The translations under genes were made by a program, and so were the position numbers. From contig CAIIXF020000006.1 in the NCBI GenBank assembly GCA_903813345.2, forward strand, positions 32,649,524-32,713,523: a DNA stretch of 64,000 nucleotides. The letters are read 5' to 3'. Positions 31,917 to 61,425 of this stretch are shown here, one piece after another. This DNA comes from Owenia fusiformis. Taxonomy: Eukaryota; Annelida; Polychaeta; Sabellida; Oweniidae. Positions within the stretch are counted from its first letter, which is position 1. Every line of letters starts with the position of its first letter. The notes beneath the pieces are model-generated. The model was not told the DNA's origin. It made no database searches and was given only the letters and a program-made list of their open reading frames with translations.

Positions 31917-32411
31917 CAGGCCTGTCAACGGCAACTGTCCCGCAATTTGCGTATTTGTCACGCATTTGCTGAAGAATTTGAAGTCTCGCCAGTTATTTTT
32001 GCGTGACAGAAAATGTCACGCAAATACGCATTTTACCTGGTAATTGTCAAGCAAAAATATTTCTCTAGAAAAATTTCTAAAAAAGATCGTCTACACAGCA
32101 AAAATACGAACGCCGGAAAAAAAACGCACGCATTTCGTTCGGACTTTTCACGCGAATTACGTATATGTCACGCATTCCGTTCGAAATTTTTCGTACCTAC
32201 CCCCCCGTTGTTGGATGTTTTAAACGCGAGAGAAGCGAGCGCGAAAAATTTGAGGTATTTAAAATTTGGCAAGATGTAATAAAATTTAAACCAAGGTGTT
32301 TAAAATTTGGATCAAGGTGTTCACATTTGGACCAAGGTGTCCACATTTTGAGGGGAGGTGTTCAACATTTCCAAGTCACTCATGTTAGGTGTTCCCAAGT
32401 TGACAGGCCTG
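31917..32411. mobile_element. 495-bp TIR element, ACCTGYCAAC-type, TSD TAGTAT
   Basis: The satellite word CATAGTATGTACTG is split between duplicated TAGTAT hexamers (31911-31916 and 32412-32417). The ends are CAGGCCTGTCAAC and its inverse, 13 bp. The interior consists of short recurring words: GTCACGCAAATACGC and variants in the left half, AAAATTTGGATCAAGGTGTT-type words about four times in the right half. No transposase is present. A 6-bp duplication does not match the 8 bp of hAT elements; the superfamily is uncertain. Confidence 0.85.
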
Positions 32412-32801
32412 TAGTATGTACTGTGTTGACTACGCCAACTACACCTGCTACACCAAAACATGAGTCTATAGGTATACATATACACTGTAGGCTCACCCTA
32501 TGTACAACTACGTCTGCTACGGGTATTTAATTGAACAAAAACAGTATAGTATGGTTACTAAGCCAACTACGCTTGCTACACCTAAACATGAATCTATAGG
32601 TATACACACACACTGCCATGGTGTACCCTACACCATGATGTACCCTATGTACCCTACCACGGTGTACCCTACGTCCGCTACGAGTATTTAATAGAAAGTG
32701 ACCACTTCATAGTATGTACTGTGTTGACTACGCCAACTGCGCCTGCTACACCAAAACATGAGTCTATAGCTATACATATACACTGTAGGGTCAACCTATG
32801 T
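32412..32801 (+). repeat. Satellite array, second forward block, continued
   Basis: Dimers continue, with a local variant in which CACCATGATGTACCCTATGT-like words are amplified (32600-32670). Ends at the TATGT target (32797-32801). Confidence 0.92.
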
Positions 32802-32813
32802 CATACCTGCCAA

Positions 32814-33125
32814 CCTACCGTATTTTTACGGGAATCTACCGTAAATCTTTCGTTTTTCCGTAAAAAAATGACAAACTACCGTAAAAAAAATACCATTTTT
32901 TCCCGTAAAAACGCCCGTAAAAAAATCTACCGTATTTTTTTCGTAATCTACCGTAAATTTTCTTTGTAAAAAACTCGTTTATTCCATGAGAACGGCCGTA
33001 AAATCTACCGTAAATTTTTGAAAATCTACCGTAAATTTTTGAAAATCTACCGTAAATTTTCGAAAATCTACCGTATTTCTGCTAAAATCAACAGTATTTT
33101 TGTTCAAACTACCGTAAAATTTCCC
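32814..33125 (+). repeat. CTACCGTAAAA word block, left
   Basis: Irregularly spaced repeats of CTACCGTAAA, ACCGTATTTTT and CCCGTAAAA on the plus strand, separated by 5-25 nt of A/T-rich filler. Because TACGGTAGATT and ATCTACCGTA words face each other, local self-pairing is possible. Confidence 0.85.
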
Positions 33126-34300
33126 GTTATTGTTATTGGGAAATGCTGAAAAATTGAAGTCTTCCTGTACTGTCCCTGTAATATTCCTTCACCAACCCGG
33201 TATTGGCAGGTCTGTGGTTATCAGGTTATTGCGCATTTATCTAAGTAAGCTTGCGTGTAATCAGTCCAAACACCAACTACCACTAGCTAGAAAGAATTCT
33301 TTCTGCCATGGTTTTTGTAGTTAACCAAACCCTTTTGTACACGGATCTTTATTCCGAATGCAACAAAAATATTATTTTAGTTGCGCTTCATCTAAATAAA
33401 TGAGTGGAAATGCGTATGCATATTTAGCGTATGAAATATGCGTAGTTTGATTTGTTATGATCAGTAATGAACGACACATATACATTATACATAGTTTAAT
33501 CAATTTGTTTACAGAACGATAAAATGTTGTATTTTTCATCAGAACACATTATCAGTAACAAATACTTAATTAAAAAATAAAGCATTGAGTTCTGGTTTAT
33601 TATAAAAGTATTGTGATATCCGAATCTGGACGATGTCTCAGGGGAAAGGTTTCGGCAAATGCTCATAACAAATTATTTTTGAAAGACAATTGATCTGTAC
33701 TTATTTTCTATTTGTGCCAGACAAACACATTGATATCATTAGAGACTTGCGAGTGAACAAATCAATATTTAATACCATATGATTCCAATGTTATATGAAC
33801 ATTATGTCTGTCATTTCAATTCGTTAAAATGATAGATCATCTAAGATGGTGAGTAAAAACGTGTAAAATCCATATTTTGTATTTCAGTAAATGTTTCATT
33901 CATGGTATTTCCAAACATCCTGATATCTAAAAAAACTGGTTAGAAGGTGAATAAAAGTGGAGATATGAATATTGTGTTCGTATTTTGAATCAATCTAGAT
34001 TTATTGTAAAAAAGTTGTATATGTACATTTTGCTGAAACATTAAAATCCAAAGTTGCTGTCAGTCCATTGTAGGCATGGTAAATGAAGAATAAAAAGTGT
34101 TTAGTCTCTATTTATTCTTGAAAATAGTATATCTATTTTTTCTTGAAAATAATAGTTTCGTATAATTCTCAGGTGGTAGTTCTGCTTTACAAACTGTAAT
34201 TATCAAAATCACTCTTGCAGTAAAATATGTATTCACAATAACAACAACAATATGACCACGTAAACATTGTATTAATATAGAAAACCGCATTGTATAAAGG
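33126..34300. other. Core of the CTACCG element, no gene seen
   Basis: AT-rich sequence between the two word blocks. Frames at 33130-33324 (+) and 34108-34290 (-) are short and show no motif. If the element ever carried a transposase, it would be expected here and it is gone. Confidence 0.6.
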
Positions 34301-35085
34301 TTTAACTACCGCATTTTTCAAAATCTACCGAAAAATACCGCATTTTGGCAAAAGTACCAGTTTTTCAAAAAATTACCGTAAAAACTACTGCAATTTTCAA
34401 AATCTACCGTAAAACTACCGCATTTGTTCAAAATCTTCCGCAAAAGTACCGGTATTTCAAAAAATTACCGTAAAAACTACCGCAATTTTCAAAATCTACC
34501 GTAAAACTACCGCATTTTTTCAAAATCTTCCGCAAAAGTACCGGTATTTCAAAAAATTACCGTAAAAACTACCGCAATTTTCAAAATCTACCGTAAAACT
34601 ACCGCATTTTTTCAAAATTTTCAGCAAAACTACCGGTTTTTCAAAAAACTTCCGTAAAAGCTACCGAATTTTTTCAAAATCTACCGTAAAACTACCGCAT
34701 TTTTTCAGAATCTTTCGCAAAACTACCGGTTTTTCAAAAACCTACCGTAAAAACTACCGCATTTTTAAAAATCTACCGTAATACTACCGCATTTTTTCTA
34801 AATCTTCCGCAAAACTACCGCTTTTTTCAAATTTCTACCGCAAAATTACACTTTTTTCAAAAATCTACCCCAAACCTCTGAAACTACAGTATTTTTTTAA
34901 AATCTACCGCAAAAACGACCGTATTTTTAAAATCTACCGCAAAAACTACCGTTTTTTAAAAAATCTACCGCAAAAACTACCGCAATTTTGTTGAAAAATA
35001 CCGCAAAAACTACCGTATTTTGAAAAATCTACCGCAAAAATACAGCAATTTAAAAAAAATCTACCGCAAAATTTTGGTCTTAGGT
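34301..35085 (+). repeat. CTACCGTAAAA word block, right
   Basis: Dense repeats of AAAATCTACCG and AAAACTACCGCATTTTT on the same strand as the left block. Part of it (about 34375-34620) is organised in a higher unit near 90 bp present about three times; other parts repeat irregularly at 20-45 bp. Confidence 0.87.
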
Positions 35086-35096
35086 TGGCAGGTATG

Positions 35097-35167
35097 TATG
35101 TACAACTACGTCTGCTACGGGTATTTAATTGAACAAAAACAGTATAGTATGTTTACAACGCCAACTA
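35097..35167 (+). repeat. Satellite fragment between two insertions
   Basis: Seventy-one bases of B monomer (GTACAACTACGTCTGCTACG onward) separate two independent TIR elements and end at the AACTA target (35163-35167). Confidence 0.93.
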
Positions 35168-35434
35168 CACTGTGGCTAGTCGATCTATGTGGATGCAGTC
35201 ATTTATATGCAATGTATCGTGGGTGCTCGCGTACATTATAGGGAATGGGATCATTACAAACATATGACAGCAAATCGAGGAAAGTGATCTCAGAGTTTCT
35301 ACATTGTGACTTGAAATCTTGGATACATATTCAAAATACATAGTATGACAATGTGTGAAAGTTTCAGCTTCCATATTCCTGTTATAGGGAAGATATTTGA
35401 AAAACTTTCCGTAAACGTCAACATATATGTATAA

Positions 35435-35650
35435 AATGGATGCCACTATGTAGCATTTGGATTCAGAACGGTAACAAATGGATGCTATGATAAATTATAC
35501 TTTTATCATGATGATTTATTTACTGATGGACAACTGGCCAGAGTTCTTTGTATCCATTGTTTGGATAAACATTCCTCATTCAGTAAAGTAATTAGCCACC
35601 CCATTACAAGTTTTAGAGACCCTCATGAAAAATTGAAATACTATATATAA
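35435..35650 (+). pseudogene. TTF/ZMYM-type zinc-finger-like fragment
   Basis: The frame is open for about 71 codons to TAA at 35648-35650, without its own ATG near the start. Roughly residues 30-68 contain VLCIHCLDKHSSFSK followed by PITSFRDPHEKLKYY. The pattern resembles the TTF-type zinc-binding N-terminal module found in DUF4371/hAT-like proteins related to the 52-kDa repressor of the inhibitor of the protein kinase, where a CxxC pair precedes a PF..W/F..A.EKL..H stretch. That family assignment is from recall of the pattern and is tentative. It is a lone exon-sized piece inside a TIR element, so either captured host or transposon sequence. Confidence 0.4.
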
Positions 35651-36285
35651 ACCCATCAACTGGAAAATGCCATTACAGATGAAAAAACTGTGCTTTTATC
35701 CGTAATACTGTTAATTTGAAAAACGGGTCCATAACATGTAATTATGACAATGAAAATGTTGAAATTAGGTACGCCGATGAAGTGAATTCAGAGCAAAAGA
35801 CCCATCAACCCACTGGAATACCCACAAATCAAGTTTCATAGCCTTACATTGCCGGACTAGGTCTTCGTGCATTTCCATCACGAATTCAGTTTTGATTTTG
35901 AATCCACATTGAATTGCATGATTTCATTAATACGAGTATTAATGACTGCTTACATTCCAATGTACATTTAATAACATAATATATTGTAACTCTCAAGAAA
36001 CACTCGATCAGATCATTGAATTTCAAGTCCTAGACGAGTAGTTTGCTTTTTTTATGCAGGTCAACCTGATAACGTTTTGATTAGTCAATCAGCCTGAAGT
36101 CACACGTCGTGTCCATGTCCATAGTGTCAATCAATATGGTTTCGCGATACCCTTAGGTAGCTTAAGTATTATGGGAATCTCGGAACCGCTGAATAACTTA
36201 GCATAATATCAGCGATGATGCATTGGATTGTACAAGGTGATACTAATTCAAGATCAGATAAGTAAATAAATAGCGACTTGGGCAG

Positions 36286-36464
36286 GGCTACAAGTTTCAG
36301 AGCCATTAACATTCCTTGAAAGTGACAATGAGCAGCCAACAGATGGACCATCCGTAAATCTTGATGATTTTGTAAGCTCAGCTGAACGAGCCTACAGATT
36401 CCTTGAAACAAATGACCCAACTTCAAGAATGATATTATCTATTTACAATTTTTTTGAAATCGTG
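36286..36464 (+). pseudogene. Exon-like fragment with splice signals
   Basis: The frame is open from after TAA at 36267-36269. An AG acceptor candidate (TTGGGCAG, ending 36285) and a strong donor GTGGTAAGT (GT at 36465) bound an exon of about 179 nt ending in phase 0. The encoded acidic, helical-looking stretch includes TFLESDNEQPTDGPSVNLDD and AERAYRFLETNDPTSRMILS. I do not recognise the family. It may belong with the fragment at 35435-35650 in one former gene, since both are on the plus strand of the same element. The acceptor lacks a good pyrimidine tract. Confidence 0.4.
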
Positions 36465-36957
36465 GTAAGTGGAATATTTCCAATTACCAATATAGTATTA
36501 TTATTGTTTTTGGACACTGTGGATTAAAATATTAAAAACACACACATTCAAAATGATTCAATTGAAACCTAGCCAGTCTGTTCATTGAATCCAATAAGAA
36601 CTTCTACTAATCCACATGATACATCATAATTAAATAATGCTTTTTAAAGCGGATATGTCACACCATAACCCCAAAATATTATAAAACGCATTGTATTTGT
36701 GTTTTACTTCACACAGATCTGTTGACTGGTCGAGTGAACTCGTTTGAGTTATCTATTCTCCGTAAAAATATCAGAGAATGTGTGTTTATAGCGTAGCTTT
36801 GGTTTTGTAAATTAATGAAGTATGATATAGACAGATGAGTAAATATAGATTATTTAAACAGAAGTGCAAAATTCTTCCATTGAAAAGTACAGAGGCGGGC
36901 ACTCACGAAACATTACATGTGCCTGACTGCATCCACATAGATCGACTAGCCACAGTG

Positions 36958-39900
36958 AACTACGCTTCCTTCATCTAAACATAAGTCTATAGGAATACAC
37001 ACACACACTGCCATGGTGTACACTGGGTATAGTGTACGTCTGCTACGAGTATTTTACTGAAAATGACCCATTCATAGTATTGAATACGCCAACTACGCCT
37101 GCTACAGCAAAACATGAGTCCATAGGTATACATACACACTGTAGGGTCACGCTATGTACAACTACGTCTGCTACGAGTATTTAATTAAAAACAAAAACAG
37201 TATAGTATGTTTACTCCGCCAACTACGCTTGCTACACCTAAACATGAGTCCATAGGTATACATACAAACTGCAGGGTCACCCTATGTACAACTACGTCTG
37301 CTACGGGTATTTAATTGAAGAAAAACAGTATTGTATGTTGACTACGCCAACTACGCTTGCTACACCTAAACATGAGTCTATAGGTATACACTCATATAGC
37401 CACGTGTTGACTACGCCAACTACGCTTGCTACACCAAAACAAGAGCCCATAGGTATACATACACACTGTAGGTCTGCCACGGGTATTTAATTAAACATAA
37501 GTCTATAGGTTTACACACACATTGCCATGGTGTACATTGGGTATAGCTACGTCTGCTTCGAGTATTTTTTTTGAAAATGACCAATTCATAGTATGTACTG
37601 TGTTGAATACGCCAAGTTCGCCTGCTACACCAAAATATGAGTCCATAGGTACCATAGTACCAACTACTCATGAAATACACACTGTAGGGTCACCCTATGT
37701 CCAACTACGTCTGCTACGGGTATTTAATTGAACAAAAACAGTATAGTATGTTTACTACGCCAATACGCTTGCTACACCTAAACATGAGTCTATAGGTATA
37801 CACTCACATAGCCACGTGTTGACTACGCCAACTACGCTTGCTACACCAAAACATGACTCCATAGGTATACATACACACTGCAGGATGCTATGTACAACTA
37901 CGTCTGCTACGAGTATTTAATAGAACAAAAAACAGTATAGTATGTTTACTACGCCAATACGCTTGCTACACCTAAACATGAGTCTATAGGTGTACACACA
38001 CTGCCATGGTGTACCCTGGGTATAGCTACGTCTGCTACGAGTATTTTATTGAAAATGACCACTTCATAGTATGTACTGTATTGACTACGCCAACTTCGCC
38101 TGCTACACCAAAACATGAGTCCATTGGTATACATACACACTGTAGGGTCACCCTATGTACAACTACGTCTGCTACGGGTATCTAAATGAACAAAAACAGT
38201 TATGGTTACTACGCCAACTACGCTTGCTACACCTAAACATGAGTCTATAGGAATAAACACACACTGCCATGGTGTAAACTGGGTAAAGTGTACGTATGCT
38301 ACGAGTTTTTTATTGAAAATAACAACTTCATAGTATGTACTCTGTTGAGTACACCAACTACGCTTGCTACACCTAAACATGAGTTTATAGGTATCCACAC
38401 ACACTGCCATGGTGTACCCTGGGAATAGCTACGTCTGCTACGGGTATTTTATTGAAAATAACCACATCATTGAGTCCATGTGTATTGACTACGCCAACTT
38501 AGCCTGCTACACCAAAATATGAGTCCATAGGTATATTATACACACTGTATGTACAACTACGTCTGCTACGGATATTTAATTGAACAAAAAAAACAGTATA
38601 GTATGTTTACTACGCCAACTACGCTTGCTACACCAAAACATGAGTCCATAGGTATACATACAAACTGCAGGGTCACCCTATGTACAACTACGTCTGCTAC
38701 GGGTATTTAATTGAAGAAAAACAGTATTGTATGCTGACTACGCCAATTACGCTTGCTACACCTAAACATGAGTCTATAGGTATACACTCATATAGCCACT
38801 GACTACGCCAACTACGCTTGCTACACCAAAACAAGAGCCCATAGGTATACATACACACTGTAGGTCTGCCACGGGTATTTAATTAAAAACAAAAAGAGCA
38901 TAGTATGTTTACTCCGCAAACTACGCTTGCTACACCTAAACATGAGTCTATAGCACACACACTGCCCTGGTGTACACTGCCATGATGTAAACCTGAGTCT
39001 ATAGGTGTACACACACACTGCCATTGTGTCCCCTGGGTATAGCTACGTCTGCTACGAGTATTTTACTGAAAATGACCACTTCATAGTATGGACTGTGTTG
39101 ACTACGCAAACTACGCCTGCTACACCAAAACATGAGTCCATAGGTATACATACACACTGTATGTACAACAACGTCTGCTACGGGTATTTAATTGAAGAAA
39201 AACAGTATAGTATGTTTACTACGCCAATACGCTTGCTACACCTAAACATGAGTCTATAGGTATACACACACATAGCCACGTGTTGACTACGCCAACTACG
39301 CTTGCTACACCAAAACATGAGTCCATAGGTATACATACACACTGTAGGTCTGCCACGGGTATTTAATTAAAAACAATAAGAGCATAGTATGTTTACTCCG
39401 CCGACTACGCTTGCTACATCTAAACATGAGTCTAAAGGTGTACACACACACTGCCATTGTGTACCCTGGGTATAGCTACGTCTGCTACGAGTATTTTACT
39501 GAAAATGACCACTTCATAGTATGTACTGTGTTGACTACGCCAACTACACCTGCTACACCAAAACATGAGTCAATATGTATACATATACACTGTAGGCTCA
39601 CCCTATGTACAACTACGTCTGCTACCGGTATTTAATTGAACAAAAACAGTATAGTATGGTTACTACGCCAACTACGCTTGCTACACCTAAACATGAGTCT
39701 ATAGGTATACACACACATAGCCACGTGTTGACTACGCCAACTACGCTTGCTACACCAAAACAAGAGTCCATAGGTAAAGATACACACTGTAGGTCTGCCA
39801 CGGGTATTTAATTAAAAACAAAAAGAGCATAGTATGTTTACTCCGCCGACTACGCTTGCTACATCTAAACATGAGTCTATAGGTGTACACACACACTGCC

Positions 39901-40256
39901 ATTGTGTACCCTGGGTATAGCTACGTCTGCTACGAGTATTTTACTGAAAATGACCACTTCATAGTATGTACTGTGTTGACTACGCCAACTTCGCCTGCTA
40001 CACCAAAATATGAGTCCATAGGTATATTATACACACTGTAGGGTCACCCTATGTACAACTACGTCTGCTACGGATATTTAATTGAACAAACAGTAAAGTA
40101 TGTTAACTACTCCAACTACGCTTGCTACTACGCTTTCTACACCTAAACATGAGTCTATAGGTATACACACACACTGCCATGTTGTACCCTGGGTATAGCT
40201 ACGTCTGCTACGAGTATTTTATTGAAAATGACCACTTCATAGTATGTACTGTGTTG
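36958..40256 (+). repeat. Satellite array, second forward block, continued
   Basis: A and B monomers continue, more diverged than in 1-13711. A regional variant, TATAGCCACGTGTTGACTAC, appears in several units (37390, 37808, 39270, 39717, 40788), and a TAGGTCTGCCACGGGTATTT variant recurs (37470, 38871, 39345, 39790, 40848). These mark a locally amplified subfamily with period near 1.4 kb at 37300 and 38660-38890. Confidence 0.93.
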
Positions 40257-40572
40257 TATTACATACCTAGCGAAGCATTTGTATGGAAGTCAATTGGAAA
40301 GTTAGCGAGCTATATCCACCGATATTGCCCGATTACCCCGATATAGCCCGCTTACCTCGTTTTGATATTAGATTTCTTTAATAACCATGATAATATCATG
40401 ACGTCACGTCATTGATACAAAGTAACCATGGGAACAAAGGCATGTAATACATCAGTTATGTCACTATGACGTGAAATATGCCTTCGTTCTTGCCCAAATA
40501 TAGAGCCTCCCAAGGTCGGCCTATATTGGGAGAACTCAGGCATATTTCACGTCATAGTGACATAACCTCTAA
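40257..40572. mobile_element. Composite insertion in the satellite
   Basis: Foreign sequence sits between a satellite unit ending TACTGTGTTG and one resuming at ATACGCCAACTTCG. It has two parts: about 195 bp with short inverted ends GTATTACATACCT and AGGCATGTAATAC (40256-40450), then a long hairpin (40455-40566). No coding sequence. A target duplication is not clear. Confidence 0.7.
40455..40566. repeat. 112-nt fold-back hairpin
   Basis: The left arm (about 40455-40502) begins GTTATGTCACTATGACGTGA and the right arm (about 40521-40566) is its inverse with a few mismatches and bulges (TTCGTTCTTGCCC against GAGTTCTCCC). The loop of about 18 nt contains CTCCCAAGGTCGGC. Arm length and loop size would give a pre-miRNA-like stem or a MITE fold-back; the sequence alone cannot separate these. 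Confidence 0.85.
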
Positions 40573-43031: not shown

Positions 43032-43042
43032 CCCCCCCCCCC
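43032..43042. repeat. C11 homopolymer
   Basis: Eleven C just before the word-repeat element at 43051. Confidence 0.9.
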
Positions 43043-43050
43043 TTACAGAT

Positions 43051-43432
43051 ACTGTAGATACACTTATTTTGACGCTACTTAATTTGACGAATTTCAAATA
43101 TTGGCGGCTATTTAATTTGGCGGAGTCAGGACTGAAGTTTATTTTCTGTCTATGTTTATGCATGGGCTATCAAGAGATTCTCTTGAAAGCCCATGGTGGT
43201 TCATGTCATTAGGACGGGTATTTACTACTGTAAGATATTTTCTGTATTTCTTTTGGGATAATGTAGAATTGATGACATGTTCAGTTGATAAGAAAAGGGG
43301 CCCCAGAAGTTTAATTTCTGAAGTGCATTTGACAAAAATTTCAAACTGAAATTTGACGGATTTTAATTTGGCGGATTTTCTGAATCCGTCAATCCGTCTA
43401 ATTAAAACGGGAGCCAAATTAAGTGACTTCAG
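43051..43432. mobile_element. Word-repeat element with imperfect TIRs
   Basis: The left end ACTGTAGATACACTTATTTTG pairs imperfectly with the inverse of the right end (ACTGAAGTCACTTAATTTGG). Next to the ends are repeated words TAATTTGACG, TTTGGCGGA, TTGACGGATTTTAATTTGG. This arrangement, related words near both ends around a non-word core, parallels the CTACCG element at 32802-35096. No coding capacity. Confidence 0.6.
43161..43195. repeat. 35-nt near-perfect hairpin
   Basis: CATGGGCTATCAAGAG pairs with CTCTTGAAAGCCCATG across a tiny loop with one mismatch. A related word, CATGGGCTTTCAA, occurs at 50944 and 57009 in isolation. Confidence 0.85.
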
Positions 43433-43436
43433 TTAT

Positions 43437-44022
43437 ATCAATATTATTTTGTATCTATCTGACATTATAATTTCGAAGAGAGATTCTCCCGGGGACATTC
43501 GGGATTTCGAACATAACAAACTTAGATGAAATTCTATGAGAATGGAATACATGGACCTGGTTACATGGTTTATCTTATTCTAAATGGACAAATCAGATCG
43601 CAGGGGCAGGAAACTCCCCCGTAATTTACATTTTGTTCATATAAAAGCCATTTGCATTAATCCTTTTGATAACTTTCTTTCGTAGTTGGTCTCTTGACCC
43701 GAAACATTGTGGCTACAACAATACAATTGAGTTTTAGAGAAAAAGTTGTGACTAACCACCCTAGGATGAACGTTGGAGCTTGTTAAGACCACATTAAGCC
43801 CCTACTTTAACCAACATCCTAACCCATGTTAAAGCCAAAGCCAACCATAGAACAACCTCCCTTCAAAACCATACGTGTACAGGCCGGTACCTACCCCTAA
43901 ATCCATGGACATAGAGGAAATTTAGGAGTCATTTTCAAATGCCTGATTACAAGATTACAGTGGTTTATTTCCGCCCTTACATAACAGTGTTGTTGGTGGG
44001 CAGAGGAAATCGGAGAAAGAGT
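43437..44022. other. No gene seen
   Basis: Non-repetitive AT-rich DNA between the word-repeat element and the large fold-back composite. It has short frames only. Confidence 0.55.
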
Positions 44023-44180: not shown

Positions 44181-44185
44181 CTCTC

Positions 44186-46390
44186 TCAATCATTTTGTTG
44201 TGCATTATGCATCTTATTCTCGTATAATTAGCATGGAAATGAGAAAAAATGAAAATAAGTAAGATTGTAACATATTGCAAGATTTTTTGCAAAAAGTAAT
44301 TTCAAACCAAAACTATGGGGGAAATTTAATTCTAAGTAAAGATATCGATGAATTAAATCATGTTCGTTAAATAAGAGTAGATTATGCATTGCATTTCTGT
44401 TTGATAAAAACGCATCGCTCATTTTACAAAACTGGCTCCAACTTGGAGCCAGTTTGCAAATCAGCTCGCTCCATCCTACACAAGCTATGTAGGGGCAATC
44501 TAGCAACTGGGAATCACGGGATACTGTTTCATGATAATTGTTATGTGCATTATGCATCTTATTCTCGTATAATTTGCATGAAAATGAGAAAAAACTGAAA
44601 AATACGTAAAATTATTACATATTTCAAGATTTTTTGGAAAAAGTCATTTCAAGCCAAAACTATGACAGTAAATTGAATTCTAAGCACAGATATCGATGAA
44701 TAAGATCAAATTCATTAAATCAGAATAGATTATGCATTGCATTTCCGTTTAATAAAAACGCACCGCTCATTTTTCAAAACTGGCTCCAACTTGGAGCCAG
44801 TTTGCAAATCAGCTCGCCACATATGACAAATGCTATGTAGGTACAATCTGGTAACTGGGAATCACGAAATACTATCTCACGATTATTTTTATGTGCATTA
44901 TGCATGTTATCCTCGTATAATTTGCATGAAAATGAGAAAAAACTGAAAAATACATAAAATTATAATATATTTCATGATTTTTTGCAAAAAGTCATTTCAA
45001 GCCAAAACTATGAGAGAAAAATCAATTCTAAGTAAAAATATCGATGAATTAGATCATGTTCACCAAATCAGAACAGATTATGCATTGCATTTCTGTTTAA
45101 TAAAAACGCACCGCTCATTTTACAAAACTGGCTCCAACTTGGAGCCAGTTTACAAATCAGCTCGCTCCATCTTACACAAGCTATGTACGGACAATCTAGC
45201 AACTGAGAATCACGAAATACTGTCTCACGATCATTTCTATGTGCATTATGCATCTTATTCTCGTATAATTTGCATGAAAATGAGAAAAAACTGAAAAATA
45301 CGCAAAATTGTAACTTATTTCAAGATTTTTTGCAAAAAGTCATTTCAAGCCAAAACTATGAGAGAAAATTTATTTCTAAGTAAAAATATCGATGAATTAG
45401 ATCACGTTCACTAAATCAGAACAGATTATGCATTGCATTTCCGTTTAATAAAAACGCACCGCTCATTTTTCAAAACTGGCTCCAACTTGGAGCCAGTTTA
45501 CAAATCAGCTCGCTCCATCTTACACAAGCTATGTAGGGACAATCTAGCAACTGGGAATCACGGGATACTGTCTCACGATCATTTCTATGTGCATTATGTA
45601 TCTTATTCTCGTATAATTTGCATGAAAATGAGAAAAAACTGAAAAATACGTAAAATTGTAACTTATTTCAAGATTTTTTGCAAAAAGTCATTTCAAGCCA
45701 AAACTATGAGAGAAAATTCATTTCTAAGTAAAAATATCGATGAATTAGATCACGTTCACTAAATCAGAACATATTATGCATTGCATTTCCGTTAAATAAA
45801 AACGCACCGCTCATTTGTCAAAAACGCTCCAACTTGGAGCCAGTTTACAAATCAGCTCGCTCCATCTTACACAAGCTATGTAGGGGCAATCTAGCAACTG
45901 GGAATCACGGTATACTGTCTCACGATTATTTTTATGTAAATTATGCATCTTATTCTCGTATGATTGGCCTGAAAATGAGAAAAAACTAAAAAATACGTTA
46001 AATTGTAACTTATTTCAAGATTTTTTGCAAAAAGACATTTCAAGCCAAAACTATGAGAGAAAATTCATTTCTAAGTAAAAACATCGATGAATTAGATCAC
46101 GTTCACTAAATCAGAATAGGTTATGCATTGCATTTAGATTAGATCACGTTCACTAAATCAGAACATATTATGCATTGCATTTCCGTTAAATAAAAACGCA
46201 CCGCTCATTTGTCAAAAACGCTCCAACTTGGAGCCAGTTTACAAATCAGCTCGCTCCATCTTACACAAGCTATGTAGGGACAATCTAGCAACTGGGAATC
46301 ACGAGATACTGTCTCACGATCATTTCTATGTGCATTATGCATCTTATTCTCGTATAATTTGCAAGAAAATGAGAAAAAACTGAAAAACTT
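44186..46390 (+). repeat. 348-bp unit array, direct orientation, about six copies
   Basis: The palindromic marker GGCTCCAACTTGGAGCC occurs at 44434, 44782, 45130, 45478, about 45825 and about 46219, giving offsets of 348, 348, 348, 347 and 394. The 394-bp step holds an extra 46-bp partial duplication (ATTAGATCACGTTCACTAAA near 46138). Each unit also has ATTATGCATTGCATTTCCG and TCTTATTCTCGTATAATTTG. Frames of 60-109 codons recur once per unit and simply reflect the repeat. Confidence 0.95.
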
Positions 46391-46865: not shown

Positions 46866-47760
46866 GTGTAGCTTGTGTAAGATGGAGCGAGCTGATTTGT
46901 AAACTAGCTCCAAGTTGGAGCCAGTTTTGAAAAATGAGTGGTACTTTTTATTAAACGGAAATGCAATGCAAAATCTATTCTGATTTAGTGAACGTGATCT
47001 AATTCATCGATATTTTCACTTAGAAATGAATTTTCTCTCATAGTTTTGGCTTGAAATGACTTTTTGCAAAAAATCTTGAAATAAGTTACAATTTTACGTA
47101 TTTTTCAGTTTTTTCTTATTTTCTTGCAAATTATACGAGAATAAGATGCATAATGCACATAGAAATGATCGTGAGACAGTATCCCGTGATTCCGAGTTGC
47201 TAGATTGTCCCTACATAGCGTGTGTAAGATGGAGTGAGCTGATATGTAAACTGGCTCCAAGTTGGAGCCAGTTTTGAAAAATGAGCGGTGCGTTTTTATA
47301 AAACGGAAATGCAATGCATAATATGTTCTGATTAAGTGAACATGATCTAATTCATCGATATTTTTACTTAGACATCAATTTTCTCTTATAGTTTTGACTT
47401 GAAATGACTTTTTGCAAAAAATCTTGAATTATGTTATAATTTTACATATTTTTCAGTTTTTCCTTATTTTCATGCAGATTATACGAGAAAAAGATGCATA
47501 ATCCACATCAAAATGATAGGGAGACAGTATCTCGTGATTCCCAGTGGCTAGATTGTCCGTTAATAGCTTGTGTTTAATGGTGAGCTGATTTGAAAACTGG
47601 GTCCAAATCGGAGCCAGTTTTGAAAAATGAGCGGTGCGTTTTTATTAAACAGAAATACAATGCATAATATTTTTGGAATTGATGAACGTGATCAAATTCA
47701 TCGATATCCATGCTTAGAATTCAATTTACCCGTATAGTTTTGCAAAAATATGACAATATA
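46866..47760 (-). repeat. 348-bp unit array, inverted orientation, about three copies
   Basis: The same unit read on the minus strand: inverted GGCTCCAACTTGGAGCC markers near 46907, 47252 and 47606. The third copy is the most diverged (GGGTCCAAATCGGAGCC). Confidence 0.93.
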
Positions 47761-47803
47761 AACTATATTCAAAAGCCATCTTAGAACTGCAACGTCAGTA
47801 AGT

Positions 47804-48080
47804 AAGAAGCCAGTTTTAAAAGCCGGCTTCTTGGTGACTCCAGAAGCCGGCTTCTGTTGTCCTTCAGAAGCCGGTTTTTAAAAGCCAGCTTCTTGTTGAC
47901 TGTAGAAGGCGGCTTCTGTAGTATGTAAGAAGCCAGTTTGTAAAAGCCGGCTTCTTGGTGACTCCAAAAGCCGGCTTCTGTTGTCCTTCAGAAGCCGGCT
48001 TTTAAAAGCCGGCTTCTTGGTGACTCCAGAAGCCGGCTTCTGTAGTACGTAAGAAGCCAGTTTGTAAAAGCGGTTTTTGC
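47804..48080. repeat. AGAAGCCGGCTTCT palindrome cluster, right
   Basis: About eight copies or half copies of the palindrome, in a sub-repeat of about 125 bp that includes TTGGTGACTCCAGAAGCC. Larger than the left cluster. Confidence 0.92.
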
Positions 48081-53763: not shown

Positions 53764-55419
53764 GGCAACGTACCGGAGAACGACATTTTACTAAGAAATG
53801 GCAATAATTTAGCACAATATATTTTTTAACTAGAGTTCTATTTTGATTTTGACAAAAGTAAGTATTCCATGCAATAACTATTTCATTCATGAGTTTGTAG
53901 GAATTCTGTTGTAACCCAGTTCTGATCAAGTACGAAGTTATTGAAATCGGCGCAGACGGACTTTACTCCGAAAGATGGTTTTTCGATTATAACTTTTCAC
54001 AACATTTAAGTATAGACTTTTGAAAAAAGTACAGAATAGTCCTTATACTTTTGAATGATCCTGTTATTTCTGATTCACACGACTCTGATTTGTTTAATCA
54101 AAAAAAAGTTTTTAAAATATTACTTAGGAACGTAACCGGAGCTGGGAAAGTAACCGGAGCAGATCAGTTGAATTATTTAATCAAAAAAATTTAAATATAT
54201 GATTTAAAGCACATATACTAATTTAAAAACATACGGGATTGTTCGAATGCGTATTTATTACATTTTATTTAAAGAAAAAAATTTATCCATTGTGAAAAAT
54301 TAAATTTGGTATTTACCATGCATAAGTGCACTTACCTTAGAAAGGCTATCAAACATAGAACAATCATTGTATGGAGAATGAAGTGATTAAATGTAGTAAG
54401 CAAATAATTCCATTTGATTTCACCCATTGTATTTGTTCAGCGAACTATTAAAACCCACTCTGTTATACTATGTCAAGAAAATGGACTTAGTGATATGATA
54501 GTACGATCCTTTAAAACCAAGGAATATCTGGACAAACACAAAAGGATTACCCACGGAAAAGTTGTATTTGAATGTCCCCATTGTGGAAAAACATGGAAGA
54601 AAAGGGCAAACATGATCAATCACATTAAAAAAATCACTGAACAATTTAGAAATTTATTAACTCATGAAAAAATAACTATTTTATGGCATCACTTTTGTAT
54701 TAGGCCTATTTGCTTTTAATTAGCGATGCGACTGATGACTGCCTCTTCTTTGTTTGACAGAACTTTGTACTATACATATATGTCCTTGTGTTACTTCCCA
54801 GCTTCCCACTGAAGCAATAACTATCAGTGAATTTTTTGATACTCTAAAATATAAGTGCAAAAAATATATCTTTAGAAAATTTATATGTTTTGCCATGCAT
54901 TGATTTTCCTGTAAGTGAAGGGTAATAAATGCTCATTTTAACATTCATATGTGTTTGTAAATAATATATATGCTTTAAATCATATATTTTATTTTTCTAA
55001 ATTATATAATTCAACTGATCTGCTCCGGTTACGTTCCCAGCTCCGGTTACGTTCCTAAGTAATATTTTTAAAACTTTTTTTTAAATTAAACAAATCAGAG
55101 TCGTGTGAATCAGAAATAACAGAATTATTCAATAGTATAAGGACTATTCTGTACTTTTTTCAAAAGTCTATACTTAAATGTTGTAAAAAGTTATAATCGA
55201 AAAACCATCTTTCGGAGTAAAGTCCGACTGCGCCGATTTCAATAACTTCGTACTTGATCAGAACTGGGTTCCAACAGAATTCCTACAAACCCATGAATGA
55301 AATAGCCATTGCATGGAATACTTACTTTTGTCAAAATCAAAGTAGAACTCTAGTTAAAAAATATATTGTGCTAAATTATTGCCATTTCTCAGTAAAATGT
55401 CGTTCTCCGGTACGTTGCC
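53764..55419. mobile_element. Fold-back element with 455-bp arms
   Basis: The left arm (about 53764-54217) starts GGCAACGTACCGGAGAACGA and the right arm (about 54964-55419) is its inverted copy at high identity. Both arms contain CGGAGTAAAGTCCG-type words and a paired GGAACGTAACCGGAGC motif facing the 746-bp spacer. No clear target duplication was found at the outer ends. The spacer carries a zinc-finger-like fragment on the plus strand. The class is unknown; long inverted arms and a short spacer are typical of fold-back elements. Confidence 0.88.
54414..54719 (+). pseudogene. Degenerate C2H2 zinc-finger fragment
   Basis: The frame runs through the fold-back spacer. Residues 30-46 read RSFKTKEYLDKHKRITH, the second half of a C2H2 finger (F-x5-L-x2-H-x4-H type), but the CxxC of that finger is lost. 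Residues 52-70 read FECPHCGKTWKKRANMINH, with CxxC, twelve residues and the first His; the second His does not follow at the expected spacing. There is no strong ATG start. C2H2 fingers bind DNA. This piece has one broken and one incomplete finger, so it is a captured or decayed gene fragment. Confidence 0.65.
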
Positions 55420-56400
55420 GTATTCAGGGGTCAATTGCCAATAAAGGGAGACTCGTAGTTCTTCCTTGTCTAATACCGTCTGCGATTGAAAATTGTTGCA
55501 TATGGTTGAACATGAATTGGTTGCTTATATAAGGACCATATCATCAACATTTGATTGACTACATGGATCTTTGAGAAATGTCGGCAATCATGTAAAAATG
55601 AATCGATGTAATGCATCGCAGTGACAAATATAATGGACTTTATGTTGGAAACTATAACAATATGTCATACCACTCTTGGTGGTGACATAAGAAACCCCAG
55701 CAATCCCACGAGCTAAGGATAAAGATCATTCCCAGACCATTACACCAAGTAGCACTTTTCGAGTCATTACAACACAAATTGAATAAAAATACAAATTGAG
55801 AGCCAATACTCATAACAATACTAAAAGTATATTAGATAATATTTAGAATTTGGTCTTAATGCTTTGAGATAGATATAACTCGTTTAACGTTTAAAAGGGT
55901 CAGCATCCCACTGCAAACCTAAAGCCTTTAGTTTTAGCAATTTAATTGACAATGCCTAAAATAATCCCCACATCCTTCAGCATCTCGAGTACATAAACTT
56001 AAAAGTTCGCAAAATCCAGAAATTATTTTACAAAGAGGAATACTGTCTCGTTAAACAAAACAAAATACCTCAAATAAAAATCAGTGACTATAGCATTTGG
56101 ATTCACTCTCGTATACCAATCCTCTCATGAAAGCTCTTATATAGAACTGATAATTCGTAAAAACTTGGATTAATCAAACGTTATAGGATGCGCCTCACAA
56201 TATAGCATCATAGAGTGCACTATTTGTAAGGAATACCTTTTATCAATTTTCAAATATTATACAGAATATAGAATGAAGTTAAGAGAAATTTGTACTCCCC
56301 TAAAATAAGCTGTAAAATAGCCCTAAAATAAGTGTATGGATAGTACTCACAATTAGCAACGACCCAGGGACAATGACTACCACTCCACATTAAACCATAC
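55420..56400. other. No gene seen
   Basis: Non-repetitive AT-rich DNA. No frame, repeat or inverted ends worth calling. Confidence 0.5.
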
Positions 56401-56550
56401 AGTACCTGTCAACCTCTCATCGGTTAAAATCGGGACAAAAATCGGGACAAATCTGGATTTTTCAGAAAAATCGGGACAAATCGGGACTTTTCGAAAAAAA
56501 TCGGGACAGCAAAACCTCTCAAAAATCGGGACTTTTCAGAAAATGCACAC
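56401..56550 (+). repeat. AATCGGGACAAA word block, one-ended
   Basis: Starts GTACCTGTCAACC, the same end type as the ACCTGYCAAC elements, followed by about seven AATCGGGACAAA or TCGGGACTTTTC words. No matching right end follows, so it is a truncated copy or one end of an element I cannot close. The same word fills the element at 61205-61425. Confidence 0.75.
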
Positions 56551-57125
56551 TGGTGGTGAAGCCTGAAATGACGCATTTTTCGTATAATTGGAAATACATT
56601 TAGCATGCCCAGCATTTTAAAGATATATGCAGTGTAAGATAAAAGCCACATTTTACGGTCATCCAATATTGTTTAGAATTGAAGATTTTATATTTACAGA
56701 TTCATGATATGATGTGGTGGTGATTGGCCTATGATTTTACGATGAAAGCGTTGTCTCTATTAACGCATGCCTAATGCGTCGATTGATTTTGAAAAGTACA
56801 CGTTTTGGGATATGATTGGGATCTTGTGGTATATATGATAGAAGTTCCCATGGACCTAAAATCGAAAGGCTTTCTCCGATTCTCAAATGGGCTTGTAAAA
56901 GAGGATCGACGTGTATTCATTTTGTTGAAATACGGTATCGGCATGATCGGGATGAAAACATTTACTCGGATATATTTTAAAATTAAATCGTTTAGGAATC
57001 GTTTAACCATGGGCTTTCAATAGATTGGTTTAACGTACATTCGACATTTAGGCCTTCATTCTGATTCATTTACTTTGGACAGTTTGTAATGAAGATGGCT
57101 TGGCCGCATTCAGTAGTCACTTTTT
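56551..57125. other. No gene seen
   Basis: Opposite-strand frames overlap at 56771-57023 without a motif. Confidence 0.5.
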
Positions 57126-57553
57126 CAGGCCTCCTAGACTTCCAACAACGCGAACATCAGTTCTGATACCGCGAACTACGTTCCTTGCACTCGAACCACG
57201 AATCTTATATCGCGAACGTGAAATCTTATATCGCGCACCACCATTTCCTTGTTTCCGAACATATTTCTTGTACCTCGAACAGAGATCCGTTACCGCGAAC
57301 AATTTGTACATAATACATCCGGGTGTTTGGGATTCCAAGTTACATGTATATGCCATGCAACGGAGTGAAACAAGGAATCGAAATTCAGTTTCTCCTCCGC
57401 TTTCGCCGGACTTTCGTTCCTATGAAAAGCATGCACTTGCATATTAGATGACCCATTCGTCACTGTATTTTGAAACGTAATCTTAAGATTAACATCCACG
57501 CCCCGAGTTGGCAGTTCTTTAAATGATGTGTCAAAGGAAAGCACTGCGTCCCA

Positions 57554-57832
57554 TAGTTCAACAAGTTAAACCCAATACCACGGCTTTCATTTATTAATCT
57601 GAATGTTCTTGTTGCCGTGATTGGGTTTAACTTCCGTGCTATTCTTTCATTTGTTGCAAATTCTCACCATCAGTTATTAAGTAAACGCGCATGAAATTAT
57701 ATGCGCTGCCATAGACCACCATTGAATATTTTGCATAAAGAGCCGAATGGGTACGGAAGTTAAACCTAGGGCGGGCCACAAGATATGTCAGATAGGAAAT
57801 AAGGCCCAGACTAGGTTTAACTTGTTGAACTA
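57554..57832. mobile_element. 279-bp MITE with 9-bp TSD
   Basis: TIR TAGTTCAACAAGTTAAACC and its perfect inverse (57814-57832), flanked by the exact duplication TGCGTCCCA (57545-57553 and 57833-57841). Two further facing copies of the AAGTTAAACC word lie inside (GGGTTTAACTTCCGTGC near 57625 and GTACGGAAGTTAAACCTAGG near 57750). A 9-bp duplication fits Mutator-like or Merlin-like elements (established knowledge); the superfamily is not decided by sequence here. Confidence 0.88.
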
Positions 57833-58729
57833 TGCGTCCCACAGTCATTCATTTTTGGGATCAGAGAGTATCTGCGCACGGTGTGGTGTAATAGGAGATG
57901 TCATTTGTAAAAGCGATATTTTTTTCTTTTTTATGACCGCCATTTTTTCAGACAAGTTTCTAAAATTTTAAAGATTGTATCATTTAGAGCAATATCTTGG
58001 GCCCATTTTCTAAAAAATTCAAAAGACTCTGTTCATTGACCTTTCCTATGCTCCTACTTAAAGCTATTTACAGTGACCTTTTCAGAGGACTGAAAAAGTT
58101 ATTTCATCATGCCTAGGGTCATTCTGACCATGGTCAGTGTGATCCTGGTCACACTGCATCATGCGACCTTTAACTACAAGGTTTACATTTATACAGTACA
58201 CCTACATTGTAGTAATCAGTTATGGCTGTATTCTGTGTAGATGCACTGGCCCGCCCCTCCCGCTGAGATGGGCCCAGAAAAAAGGGTCCGACATTTTAGC
58301 GCTCCACATGTCTTGGGTCAGATATCGTCCTGGTTGCTGAAGTCAGGAAATTTTTGGGAACATGGGGCAAAACGGCCCTCATAATAGTTTGATCCGTGCA
58401 GAGGTTTTTCTAATCTGTCAATCATCGCGAACTTTCATGTTCCATCTTATGAAGGGATTATATTTTACATTTTCTGTGATTTTTCAGAGTGTTCGAAAAT
58501 AATGTTGAGAGGAGGGCAAAATGGCCCATGGGTGGGGCAGAACAGCGCACAATGAAAGCTTCGGTTTTAAAACCAAGATTAATTAACTGCAGGACTCGTC
58601 AACACACATTTATTTCAGACGGTCAAAGATTAGACAGATAAAGTATTCTTTATGGTGTTAAAACTGTATCAAAATTGGTCATCTTATATTTATGTGATAT
58701 CTCAAACACATAGAATAGCGTTTAGTAGA

Positions 58730-59650
58730 ATACATACACAATCCGTGTGATTTCATACACGGTTTGTTCGAGTTTGTACACTTTATGTTTGTAAAATCAC
58801 ACTTGTACATGCGTATTTGTGTATGCATTGTTTAAAAATGACATCGAACAGGGTACACAAGTCGAACAAACTCTTGTGCGGCTCGCACAAACGTTTTCCC
58901 CTTCACAAACCATGATGTGCCGATCACACACCTTGATGTACCGATCACACATCTTGATGTAACATAAATTGCTTTCTAGAGATGTTCGAGATTTTGTTCT
59001 AAATCTCGCGTTACTTTTGCACTGAACGAAATAACACATCAGCGCGGCAAAAAGATAAAAAGATCTAGTTTGTAGTTTCTCAATATATGGCCACTGTACG
59101 TCTCCCCAGCCTAGGGCCTAGGGTATCCTATTATATATTTTTAATTTAAAATTTACATTTTATCACATTTCAACGAAGGGCACCATATTGTAGAAATCAG
59201 GATGTAAATATCACGTGACTTCAAATCTCGCACCCTGTGTGAAGTGCAACTTGTTTGTGACAGCCTATGCGAGCGGGAGCCATCCTATGCGAGTTTGAAC
59301 TCAATGCGTTTGTAAAATTGACACGTTCGTTCGAAATTTACTTTGATCCATGTGTAATTCTTTCAGTATTCTATGCAACTTATAACACAATCCGTGTGAC
59401 ATTTCAACATTGCTTTTGGATTTTTGTAAAGTGATTTGAGTTAGTGCTTACTCTTTGTGTGACACTTGATACAACCAGTGCGTGTGTGAATGAAAATAAG
59501 TTATGTAAGAAAATTAACTGTTGGTATAACATGGATTGAAAATGGCACACGATGATGCTAGTTTCGCATATAATGATGCGTATTTCGCATAGTATGATGC
59601 GAGTTTCGAATCATATGGTTCGAGTATCGCATCATATAGTTCGATTTTTC
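58730..59650. repeat. Interior rich in CACACG/TTCGA words
   Basis: Recurring short words include ACACAATCCGTGTGA (58736 and 59388, direct), TTGTTCGAGTTTG, GATCACACACCTTGATGTAC twice in tandem near 58918-58960, and at 59548-59650 a run of about four 25-bp units containing ATGATGCGAGTTTCG-like words. The pattern again is an element interior built of degenerate short words. Confidence 0.7.
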
Positions 59651-60548
59651 CCATACATCATGTAATGTCCAATTTTGATACAAAATAAATTCCATAATTC
59701 TTAGCCCTTACCCTAAAATTACGATTTAGTAGTCATTTGATATGTTTTGAAACAAAAACTAAGTGTTAAAATCTTTATCAGGATGTTAGATTGTTATTTT
59801 CCTGTATGTAAACAGTTAATCCCACAAGCCGTAATGGGGGAGGGGGCAACATTTAAGTTAAGTTTTCATCTAAATGTTGACAGGCAAAGGGTAGCATCTT
59901 CAAATTATCAGTAGCTGGAGCGACAGATATAGCACATCAAGTATTCTATAAAATCAGGAATATTGTACATAGGGTAGGCCTAACTCATTTCTTTATTATG
60001 ATGCAATCATGGACAAATTTGGAAAAAGCTGGTAAAGAGAAAGAAGATATTCTGGATTTTGAAGCCCTGTGATCGGAGGATGTCACTAATTTGGCCAAAC
60101 ATGTACGTGTTGTTACTCAAAAGTCAGGTTTTGTTGTTATTACCCAGCCCTTTCACTGAAAATGTCAATGCGCGTGATTGCAAGGTAGTCCCAATATCTT
60201 GTGTTTCCTAGAGCTTGAAAATACTGTTATCGTCAATGATTAGATATTCATTCACATGCATGAAAAACTGGGAAAATATTTCTTCTGCATTCCACATGAA
60301 AACACCTCTTTGGAATTACACTTATGCGTAATAATACGAACAAAATTACGGACTTTTTTCGATCAGATGCGTGGTTCGCGGTAACGGATCTTTGTGCGCG
60401 GTACAAGAAATATGTTCGGAAACAAGGAAATGGTGGTGCGCGATATAAGATTTCACATTAGCAATATGAGATTCGTGGTTCGAGTGCAAGGAACGTAGTT
60501 CGCGGAATCAGAACTGATGTTCGCGTTGTTGGAAGTCTAGGAGGCCTG

Positions 60549-60851
60549 TTTTTGATGTAAACTTGACAAGAATTTTGTTTGCCAACAAGGACCTAAACAT
60601 GTAATATAAATTGCTGTGTGAATTAATAATGCGCGCTTTGTTCAAGAGCAAAGTGCATGAGTTAGTATTATTGACGTCTTTTAAAAAATCAAATATCATC
60701 GCATATATTTTAGGTGAAGATGTTTACCAATTTATAGACAAATAATTTCGAAAGGTATATGCTCTATCTGATTTTAAAATATTTCTCGAATGCATTTTGA
60801 ATGTAAAATCTAATAATAAAAAGCCGATATCTACCGGGCTTGGTGCTTTTA
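60549..60851. other. No gene seen
   Basis: AT-rich spacer between the 3.4-kb element and a hairpin. Confidence 0.5.
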
Positions 60852-61005
60852 ATTAAGAAATATAGACCGAAAAACTGTTGGGTGTAAGGAATGAATACAG
60901 ACCCCGTGGGTGGGTAAACACGTTTTCTATAAAAAAAGTGTGTGCCCGACCAGAAGGTTTGTAGTCATTCATACTCCAACAGTTTTGAGGTCTATATTAT
61001 TAAGA
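60852..61005. repeat. Long imperfect hairpin, about 150 nt
   Basis: The left arm (from TTAAGAAATATAGACC through AAAACTGTTGGGTGTAAGGA) pairs with the right arm (CATACTCCAACAGTTTTGAG, then GTCTATATTATTAAG). The stem is about 65-70 bp with bulges, and its loop is near TTTTCTATAAAAAAAGTG. Fold-back MITE or hairpin-RNA candidate. Confidence 0.75.
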
Positions 61006-61204
61006 TTCCTGAATAAATAACAGAAAATGCGTAACATAATGTTACTATTCTGATCATTTAATGTTAGAATAGATCATATTTGTACATATATAGCATTTGC
61101 TTCCCATGTACAGCACATAAAATACAGAAGAAAATATTAACCTCTTGTTCTTTTGATGCAGAATGAGCTCTTTAAATAGAAGAAGAAGTTGCAGTTCGTA
61201 GTTG

Positions 61205-61425
61205 CATACCTGTCAGTAGTTTAAAAATTAATCGGGAAAAATGTGTTGCAAATTGAATTCAATACAAAATTTACGATGAAAACAAGTAAAAAATAAATCG
61301 GGACAAAATCGGGACATATGTGCCCAAAATCGGGACAAAATCGGGATCGGGACAGGCCTAAAAAAATCCGGACAGGCCAAAAAAATCGGGACAATCCCGA
61401 TTAAAATCGGGACTTGACAGGTATG
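61205..61425. mobile_element. 221-bp ACCTGYCAAC-type element with CGGGAC words
   Basis: Ends CATACCTGTCA and, inverted, CATACCTGTCAAGTCCCGA. The interior has about eight AATCGGGACAAA words, some facing (ACAATCCCGATTAAAATCGG). No target duplication could be assigned. The ends match the type seen at 32802-35096 and, more distantly, 31917-32411. Confidence 0.78.

Follow-up and report, generated by a model that had tools for sequence, protein, structure and literature searches.

We analysed a 64,000-nucleotide stretch of the genome of the annelid Owenia fusiformis (GenBank assembly GCA_903813345.2, contig CAIIXF020000006.1, positions 32,649,524 to 32,713,523 of the forward strand). This whole stretch is termed the window, and positions below are counted within it; it lies on contig C6 of a genome of 498 Mb in 525 contigs. 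The window holds transposable elements bounded by terminal inverted repeats (TIRs), whose end regions carry arrays of short repeated words. Families F1, F2 and F3 have short CA...TG ends, F6 is nested within F3, and F4 and F5 came from a genome-wide search with an end pattern. Mobility of F1-F4 and F6 is evident from target-site duplications (TSDs) and from an empty site. The features are as follows, with the evidence for each in parentheses.

31917-32411, plus strand: F1, a non-autonomous TIR element with CAGGCCTGTCAAC... ends (copies, ends, TSD tally)
31911-31916, partner 32412-32417, unstranded: TSD of F1, TAGTAT (sequence, tally)
32802-35096, plus strand: F2, a non-autonomous TIR element with perfect 16-bp ends, CATACCTGCCAACCTA (sequence, copies, TSD tally)
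32797-32801, partner 35097-35101, unstranded: TSD of F2, TATGT (sequence, tally)
32815-33115, plus strand: left word array of F2, CTACCGTAAA (sequence, shuffle test, copies)
CCG 32818-32820, CGG 32829-32831, CCG 32839-32841, plus strand: sense-antisense-sense triplet at the start of the F2 left array (sequence)
33201-34280, unstranded: middle of F2, without an enriched word and variable among copies (shuffle test)
34290-35071, plus strand: right word array of F2, CTACCGCAAAA and CTACCGTAAAA, with higher-order 31- and 92-bp units (tandem-repeat and shuffle analysis)
56396-61425, plus strand: F3, one TIR element of about 1.6 kb without F6 (loci L081, L082 and L103; TSD check)
56428-56530, plus strand: left word array of F3, AATCGGGACA (shuffle test, word counts)
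61295-61414, plus strand: right word array of F3 (shuffle test)
CCG 61408-61410, CGG 61397-61399, CCG 61387-61389, minus strand: right triplet of F3, inward from 61425 (sequence)
57126-60548, plus strand: F6, a TIR element nested in F3, with CAGGCCTCCTAGAC ends (copies, empty site, TSD)
57121-57125 and 60549-60553: TSD of F6, TTTTT (sequence, empty site)
57126-57300, plus strand: left arm of F6, CGCGAAC-type words mostly 19-21 bp apart (shuffle test, spacing)
60374-60548, minus strand: right arm of F6, 95% complementary to the left arm (inverted-repeat analysis)

Mobile families with a common tip

A shared terminal core had been proposed in a preliminary description of this DNA, and it stands. 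The window contains CAKRCCTGYCA eight times where 0.25 occurrences are expected, and none of 100 shuffles reached eight. Exact F2 ends are numerous genome-wide, with 176 occurrences of the left end (CATACCTGCCAACCTACCG) and 156 of the right (CATACCTGCCAACCTAAGA), and absent from reversed sequences, which served as controls for genome-wide end and word counts. Matches to ACCTGYCAAC with at most one mismatch number 11 in the window against 7.3 expected, which is not significant (10 of 100 shuffles as high).

F1 and F2, both suggested earlier as elements, are real mobile families with CA...TG ends. Flanking duplications were checked in 21 copies of F1, 22 of F2, three of F3, seven of F4 and three of F6. 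F1 has ∼2056 rough candidates genome-wide, the best 40 scored at 93–100%. Of its 21 copies (20 fetched plus the window copy), 18 have an exact TSD of 6 bp; among the remaining three, the left end was not located by our script in one and two had no exact duplication. Compared with the fetched copies, the window copy has six extra bases, GGCAAC, after its 13-bp left end. For F2 there are 506–591 rough candidates, and 60 of the 100 left ends listed (of 176) could be paired with a right end listed no more than 12 kb away, at a median element length of 2164.5 bp. The F2 duplication was 5 bp in 16 copies, 6 bp in two and absent in four, among them L091 and L092, whose left flanks are identical to each other. 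L092 has F1 and F2 elements near each other; its F1-type ends are those at 1456 (+), 1952 (-) and 2508 (+), of which the one at 1456 has a variant tip, CAGGGCTGTCAAC. Within F2 in the window, an inward TIR-like CAGACCTGCCAATACCGGG was noted at 33204-33214, on the inner edge of the left word region; it is perhaps the old end of a shorter element.

What had been taken for a one-ended copy at 56401 and a separate element at 61205-61425 turned out to be the two ends of a single element, F3, of which copies without F6 exist (L081, L082 and L103). The CATACCTGTCA at 61205 has the left flank TTCGTAGTTG, common to all six other loci where the flank was read, and is thus internal to F3 rather than an end. 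The F3 duplication is imperfect in the window (TAAAC/TAAAA) and an exact 5 bp in the other two of the three copies checked. Nine matches to F3 were found genome-wide; L083/L106 has its left end, and no right end was seen in the 9.7 kb read.

L103, on contig C10, matches the window at 99.8–99.9% with its flanks but has no 57126-60548; CACTTTTTGATG stands there where the window has CACTTTTT, F6 and TTTTTGATG. This is the empty site, showing F6 to be a later insertion into F3 with a 5-bp duplication. F6 had been described as having the same design with other ends; it is indeed a real TIR element with words, but with long arms (175 bp, in an element of 3.4 kb) and nested in F3. All three copies with both ends available have a 5-bp TSD (at L123 the right end lies outside the fetched stretch), and the best 40 of 520 genome-wide candidates are at 98–100%. 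Window positions 55417-61438 minus F6 are 99.8–100% identical to C10 at ∼29.62 Mb (L103), F3 flanks included. This duplication between contigs predates the F6 insertion.

The pattern CATACCTGYCAACCTB matched 50 times genome-wide (reversed control 2), and 14 of the 50 were fetched, yielding F4 and F5. F4 (L084-L090 and L094) has the left end CATACCTGCCAACCTCTC and the right end CACAGTTGCCAACTCCCG, imperfect as terminal repeats, and a 6-bp TSD in five of the seven copies whose right end was located; L086, an F4 left end with a long reverse-transcriptase-like insert, had no right end located and is outside this tally. F5 is represented by one end only, in L084 (CAGAGCTGTCAAGTGTCCCGCG). L093 has a left end whose partner was not found.

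Word arrays: placement, strand and spacing

Words were evaluated by comparing the top GC-containing 7-mer of each element region with 200 dinucleotide shuffles. It beat all 200 in F1 as a whole, in the F6 arm and in both end regions, left and right, of F2, F3 and F4. Middles of F2, F3, F4 and F6 showed no enrichment, with 200, 33, 177 and 73 of 200 shuffles as high. Word placement is confined to the ends. For F1, the cores of the proposed words repeat, but the full 14-mer GTCACGCAAATACG and 16-mer TTTGGATCAAGGTGTT are each complete only once.

The words of F2-F4 have strand polarity. Across 18 F2 copies, plus- and minus-strand counts of TACCG were 164 and 0 within the left 350 bp, 583 and 6 within the right 900 bp, and 8 and 8 between these regions. 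F3 words are also mostly on one strand (6/0 and 7/1 at the two ends), as are those of F4 (21/0 and 5/1). F6 cannot reveal polarity because its arms are long and inverted.

Most family words contain a CCG core (TACCG, TCCCG, TCCCGCG, ACCGCG), so that the vocabularies, supposedly different, may amount to a single word in several dialects; the F1 right word and the F4 left word, as they stand, are outside the pattern. The interiors described as unrelated are so in their middles; similarity of the end regions is clear for only two pairs (below). The 12-mer AATCGGGACAAA, the sole word counted genome-wide, is not an ordinary genome-wide microsatellite, the case that was to refute the earlier idea. 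Its 93 matches (reversed control 53) divide into 25 that have another match no more than 6 kb away, every one of them at an F3 copy, and 68 singletons, two of them in F3 (L083, L107) and 66 elsewhere, near background. We rejected a microsatellite for this word on that distribution, the clustered matches being all at F3 and the remainder near background.

Arrays differ in length among copies. They contain tandem units of 21, 31 and 92 bp, and the right-end word number of F2 ranged over 25–42 in 18 copies. These units and this variation look like local tandem duplication, leaving a special process that seeds and spreads a motif, as had been suggested, unneeded.

Spacing was measured with words picked by eye and a period picked with the DNA helix in mind. 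The best period was 10.1–10.4 bp in six of nine arrays (from F2, F3, F4 and F6). A jitter control was beaten by the F2 right array in two copies (0/1000), by F4 left in L090 (0/1000) and by the F6 arm (2/1000); it was not beaten by F2 left (63), F3 left (92), F3 right (440), F4 left in L088 (192) or F4 right (303 of 1000). When each of the seven arrays was represented by a single copy, there were 36 distinct spacings of at most 45 bp, of which 30 lay no more than 2 bp away from a multiple of 10.3 bp, against a base rate of 0.40; one of 81 spacings fell in the 13–18-bp range, and eight exceeded 45 bp. With all nine arrays the figures were 42 of 50 and one of 147. The F4 right array contains one 13-bp spacing. 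The binomial value for the set with one copy per array (1e-7) is a guide only, given the choice of words and period and the common descent of spacing classes in the same array. In F2-F4, short spacings are most often 10–12 bp.

Phasing to the tip was also seen. Of ten ends put through a palindrome scan, one copy each, five (F1 left, F2 left, F3 right, F4 right and F5) have an inverted word pair whose centre lies 22.5–24 bp from the tip, with a chance per end of 2.8–12.2%; the F2 right end has an AT palindrome at 25.5 bp. At F2 left, F3 right and F5, CCG starts at 16–18, CGG at 27–28 and CCG at 37–38, with 10–11 bp between successive words. Similarity beyond the tip, at bp 14–46, was clear for F1 left with F5 and for F3 right with F4 right (0 of 500 shuffles each), so that the five palindrome ends are perhaps three independent cases. 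F2 left with F3 right (4 of 500) and F2 left with F5 (12) are hardly above other pairs (F1 right with F6, 7; F1 right with F4 left, 8; F4 right with F4 left, 10) and fall after 45 tests. We regard spacing by helical turns and tip phasing as shown, with these caveats.

Conservation gives a weak test. In the F2 right array of the window copy, word columns are conserved at 0.91 against 0.84 for spacers, and in the weakest of five copies at 0.78 against 0.75. The CCG of F2 words is conserved at 0.86–0.96 in the window copy.

Likeness to hAT transposons and rival explanations

hAT ends are often CA..TG. To our knowledge, hAT subterminal repeats are known from single elements: Ac, Hermes, Tol2, Tag1 and Herves. 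Here, TSD length tracks family, at 6 bp in F1 and F4 and 5 bp in F2, F3 and F6, and TSDs of 5 and 6 bp are given as marks of hAT5 and hAT6 in the cited part of PMC12730594 (after Kapitonov and Jurka 2007). TIRs of 13–16 bp in F1-F3, imperfect in F4, are within the hAT range of 5–27 bp (cited part of PMC3517528), from which the 175-bp arms of F6 depart. Subterminal short repeats near the tips are a further hAT trait, also seen here. The fit to hAT5 and hAT6 is drawn from the 5- and 6-bp TSDs accompanying short CA..TG ends; likeness to these two groups in particular lies in the TSDs. A further mark of the two groups is a transposase of the Blackjack lineage.

Hermes offers the closest description of ends, in the cited sections of PMC10368747. 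Its left end has a quasi-palindrome of two subterminal repeats (STRs), STR1 and STR2, just inside the TIR; BED domains bind three STRs, and phasing is called crucial. Left-end STR2-STR7 are antisense and right-end STR1-STR5 sense; going by the '8 + TIR-RE + 30' layout, those of both ends would lie on one strand if read tip-inward, like the words of F2-F4. Hermes and the present families are thus alike in the short TIR, the pair at one end and the further repeats running one way near each tip. They differ in that Hermes makes 8-bp TSDs and has a 4-bp motif, present 17 and 14 times, whereas words here are 7–11 bp with up to 42 at one F2 end; the inverted pair is centred at 22.5–24 bp here and at ∼19 bp in Hermes, by our reading of its printed bases A15-T23.

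According to the cited parts of PMC3143072 and PMC3260210, short subterminal repeats are what the transposases of Ac, Tol2, Tag1 and Herves bind, and these repeats vary from element to element, AAACGG in Ac and CG/AATTCAT in Herves. Non-autonomous members of maize Ac/Ds have common TIRs and subterminal AAACGG hexamers with different interiors, as here, but one word serves all Ds, whereas each family here has its own word form and longer arrays. Herves, a mosquito hAT, is alike in a transposase that binds a subterminal motif; it differs in having a known active autonomous element and an array of another kind. The foldback elements Galileo and Tetris share internal tandem repeats, which in Galileo hold extra transposase sites, and Tetris shares the missing autonomous partner; they differ in their long inverted terminal repeats, against short TIRs in F1-F4 and direct arrays in F2-F4. 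A foldback assignment does not fit, the ends of F1-F3 being without long inverted arms; F6 has 175-bp arms in 3.4 kb.

These elements are a real set of non-autonomous families with common tips; their arrays, confined to the ends and largely polar, most likely represent enlarged subterminal binding regions. To the specific proposal, that they are hAT5/hAT6-type transposons and their words predicted subterminal transposase sites that grew in number through local tandem duplication, we assign a probability of about 0.58. Transposases that this analysis did not find would move the elements in trans. Family-specific words just inside the short CA...TG repeat would be docking sites for the transposase DNA-binding domain. 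The first words at one end of several families, alternating in direction at a fixed tip distance, would act like Hermes STR1-STR2, and the words beyond them, largely confined to a single strand and often separated by one, two or three turns of the helix, would add docking sites. Words would multiply by local tandem duplication and diverge among families alongside transposase specificity, and transposition would then copy the enlarged arrays. We infer hAT membership, transposase binding of the words, selection on their spacing and co-divergence of words and transposases. The earlier idea of multiplied transposase-binding sites is the best account of arrays that are confined to ends, polar in F2-F4, spaced and, at some ends, phased; the binding in it remains a prediction.

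A number of points weigh against this proposal. Helical spacing beats the jitter control in only four of nine arrays, from three families; four of ten ends have no palindrome at the expected tip distance, among them F6 with its long inverted arms; and similarity at bp 14–46 is clear for just two of 45 pairs. Over five F2 copies, words are conserved only slightly above spacers (0.78–0.93 against 0.75–0.84). The F1 left word differs from the F1 right word. L081 has a perfect TSD but a right end without the word palindrome, so that the pair is either dispensable or was lost after insertion. The suggested correlation of word number with copy number did not appear as a rise in four families with rough counts: F1 has few words and ∼2056 candidates, F2 ∼45 words and 506–591, F6 520 candidates, and F3 ∼15 words and nine matches. 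A Hermes donor with mutated interior left-end putative BED sites kept ∼70% activity, which argues against long arrays being required in that element, and the same paper, in its cited section, is sceptical of additional transposases binding within the ends in cells (PMC10368747).

The search for a partner adds to these points. We looked for a hAT transposase (BED, RNase-H fold and C-terminal dimerisation domain) in an autonomous copy with the same ends. A genome-wide search gave 138 matches to the hAT dimerisation domain; CCTGYCAAC was not found downstream of the 40 sampled (1.6 kb, or 0.8 kb for one). Six of the 60 F2 pairs exceed 3 kb, and in the five read in whole or part (L034 and L109-L112) no transposase was recognised by eye. 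L109, L110 and L112 contain retroelement-like frames, L034 has similar frames on opposite strands, and L111 an insert without a recognised transposase. F3 ends without a near partner, and the 14 fetched CATACCTGYCAACCTB ends, yielded no transposase. In the F2 middle there was no Pfam match for any of four open stretches of at least 40 aa, and for ten of the 15 such stretches in F2 and F3 middles there was none above cut-off. Because no partner was found, hAT membership and word binding stay predictions. Looser end patterns gave four and ten scattered matches downstream of the sampled hAT matches; one of these, at L049, was followed: a CATATCTGTCAA that lies downstream of a hAT gene on C9, called ZBED-like by eye, and was judged chance. 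Multi-copy hAT-domain families were rejected as partners, their common stretches ending in TAGGGCTGTGCCGG and TAGAGGCTGACGG, unlike the ends of F1-F6. A separate hAT-domain family has a common stretch ending at or near TAGAGGCTGACGG (L045, L047, L054-L057, L073, L076, L079, L098 and L099). Open-licence literature queried with the end sequences gave nothing on these elements among the matches listed, nor did the papers listed for subterminal repeats, for arrays in hAT5 and for spacing by helical turns include any on arrays like these.

The words could instead be a neutral minisatellite, a 10–12-bp unit near each tip that grew by slippage and unequal exchange in the source copy of each family and then decayed, its spacing given by unit length; we consider this somewhat unlikely. 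Tandem 21-, 31- and 92-bp units and array length that varies among copies are consistent with it, and units of 10–12 bp, the commonest short spacings in F2-F4, would also give multiples near 10 bp, a point that counts against docking sites. The slight excess of word over spacer conservation at the F2 right end, the five of nine arrays that fail the jitter control, and the internal tandem repeats of foldback transposons such as Tetris, which seed satellites (cited part of PMC4079207), point the same way. It does not readily explain why arrays are confined to the ends, at both ends and in several families, why F6 words are mostly 19–21 bp apart, or why the first inverted pair has a similar tip distance in five families. 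CpG usually decays, yet the CCG of F2 words is conserved in the window copy.

Two further explanations are very unlikely in our view. In one, the words bind a host factor of replication, silencing or transcription and are kept because it aids copy persistence. Strand polarity would be expected from a directional host process, and proteins from maize nuclei bind the subterminal regions of Ac too, to judge by a title cited in PMC3260210; but the words differ by family while the tip distance of the first pair is similar, which points to a tip-recognising protein. In the other, hAT likeness is convergent and a different superfamily with 5–6-bp duplications moves the elements. No transposase is tied to them, and IS3EU also makes 6-bp TSDs, but the IS3EU families described in the cited part of PMC12730594 have TAYGG..CCRTA ends and TIRs of more than 30 bp, against CA...TG with 13–16 bp here, for which we rejected that class; and a single type of end with TSDs of both 5 and 6 bp is in keeping with hAT5/hAT6.

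The docking-site proposal draws its interest from constant geometry against changing letters, and its proof requires the transposase. It is unlikely, on present evidence, that geometry (tip phase, polarity and helical pitch) and terminal repeat are fixed while words are replaced array-wide in each family, making the arrays helically aligned, directional platforms for multimers of a co-evolving transposase; such a change would be a natural series for the splitting of transposon specificities. Families in one genome with common tips, whose words differ while tip distance and much of the spacing hold, would make it possible to separate what a transpososome needs (geometry) from its specificity (letters), and would reveal how a non-autonomous element comes to escape a given transposase or to keep it. 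If the spacing is neutral minisatellite growth, these would be ordinary tandem repeats borne by transposable elements.

Other repeats in the window

Positions 43051-43432, also put forward as a TIR element with ends of its own, were rejected as one. In seven of seven fetched copies similarity runs past both proposed ends, on the right to the flank limit in all seven and on the left to the limit in five and at least 19 bp past the proposed end in two; the proposed ends are therefore not ends. Its words are also weaker (2 of 200 shuffles as high). Positions 43040-43445 are part of a longer repeat with 777 rough candidates and repeated words of its own, AATTTGACGG and AATTTGGCGG, whose true ends were not found.

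Tandem repeats of 348 bp occupy 44182-46135 (5.6 copies) and 46869-47742 (2.5 copies), near a AAGCCGGCTTCT-rich region at 47797-48071. A satellite with units of ∼100–270 bp fills 1-27200 and switches orientation at ∼13.7 kb, where the GC skew flips; this reversal mid-way makes the region look like a large inverted duplication. Near-identical frames lie within it at 9355-9723 (minus) and 20027-20395 (plus). A hairpin at 61855-61943 has arms of 43 nt, 91% complementary, and a loop of 3 nt.

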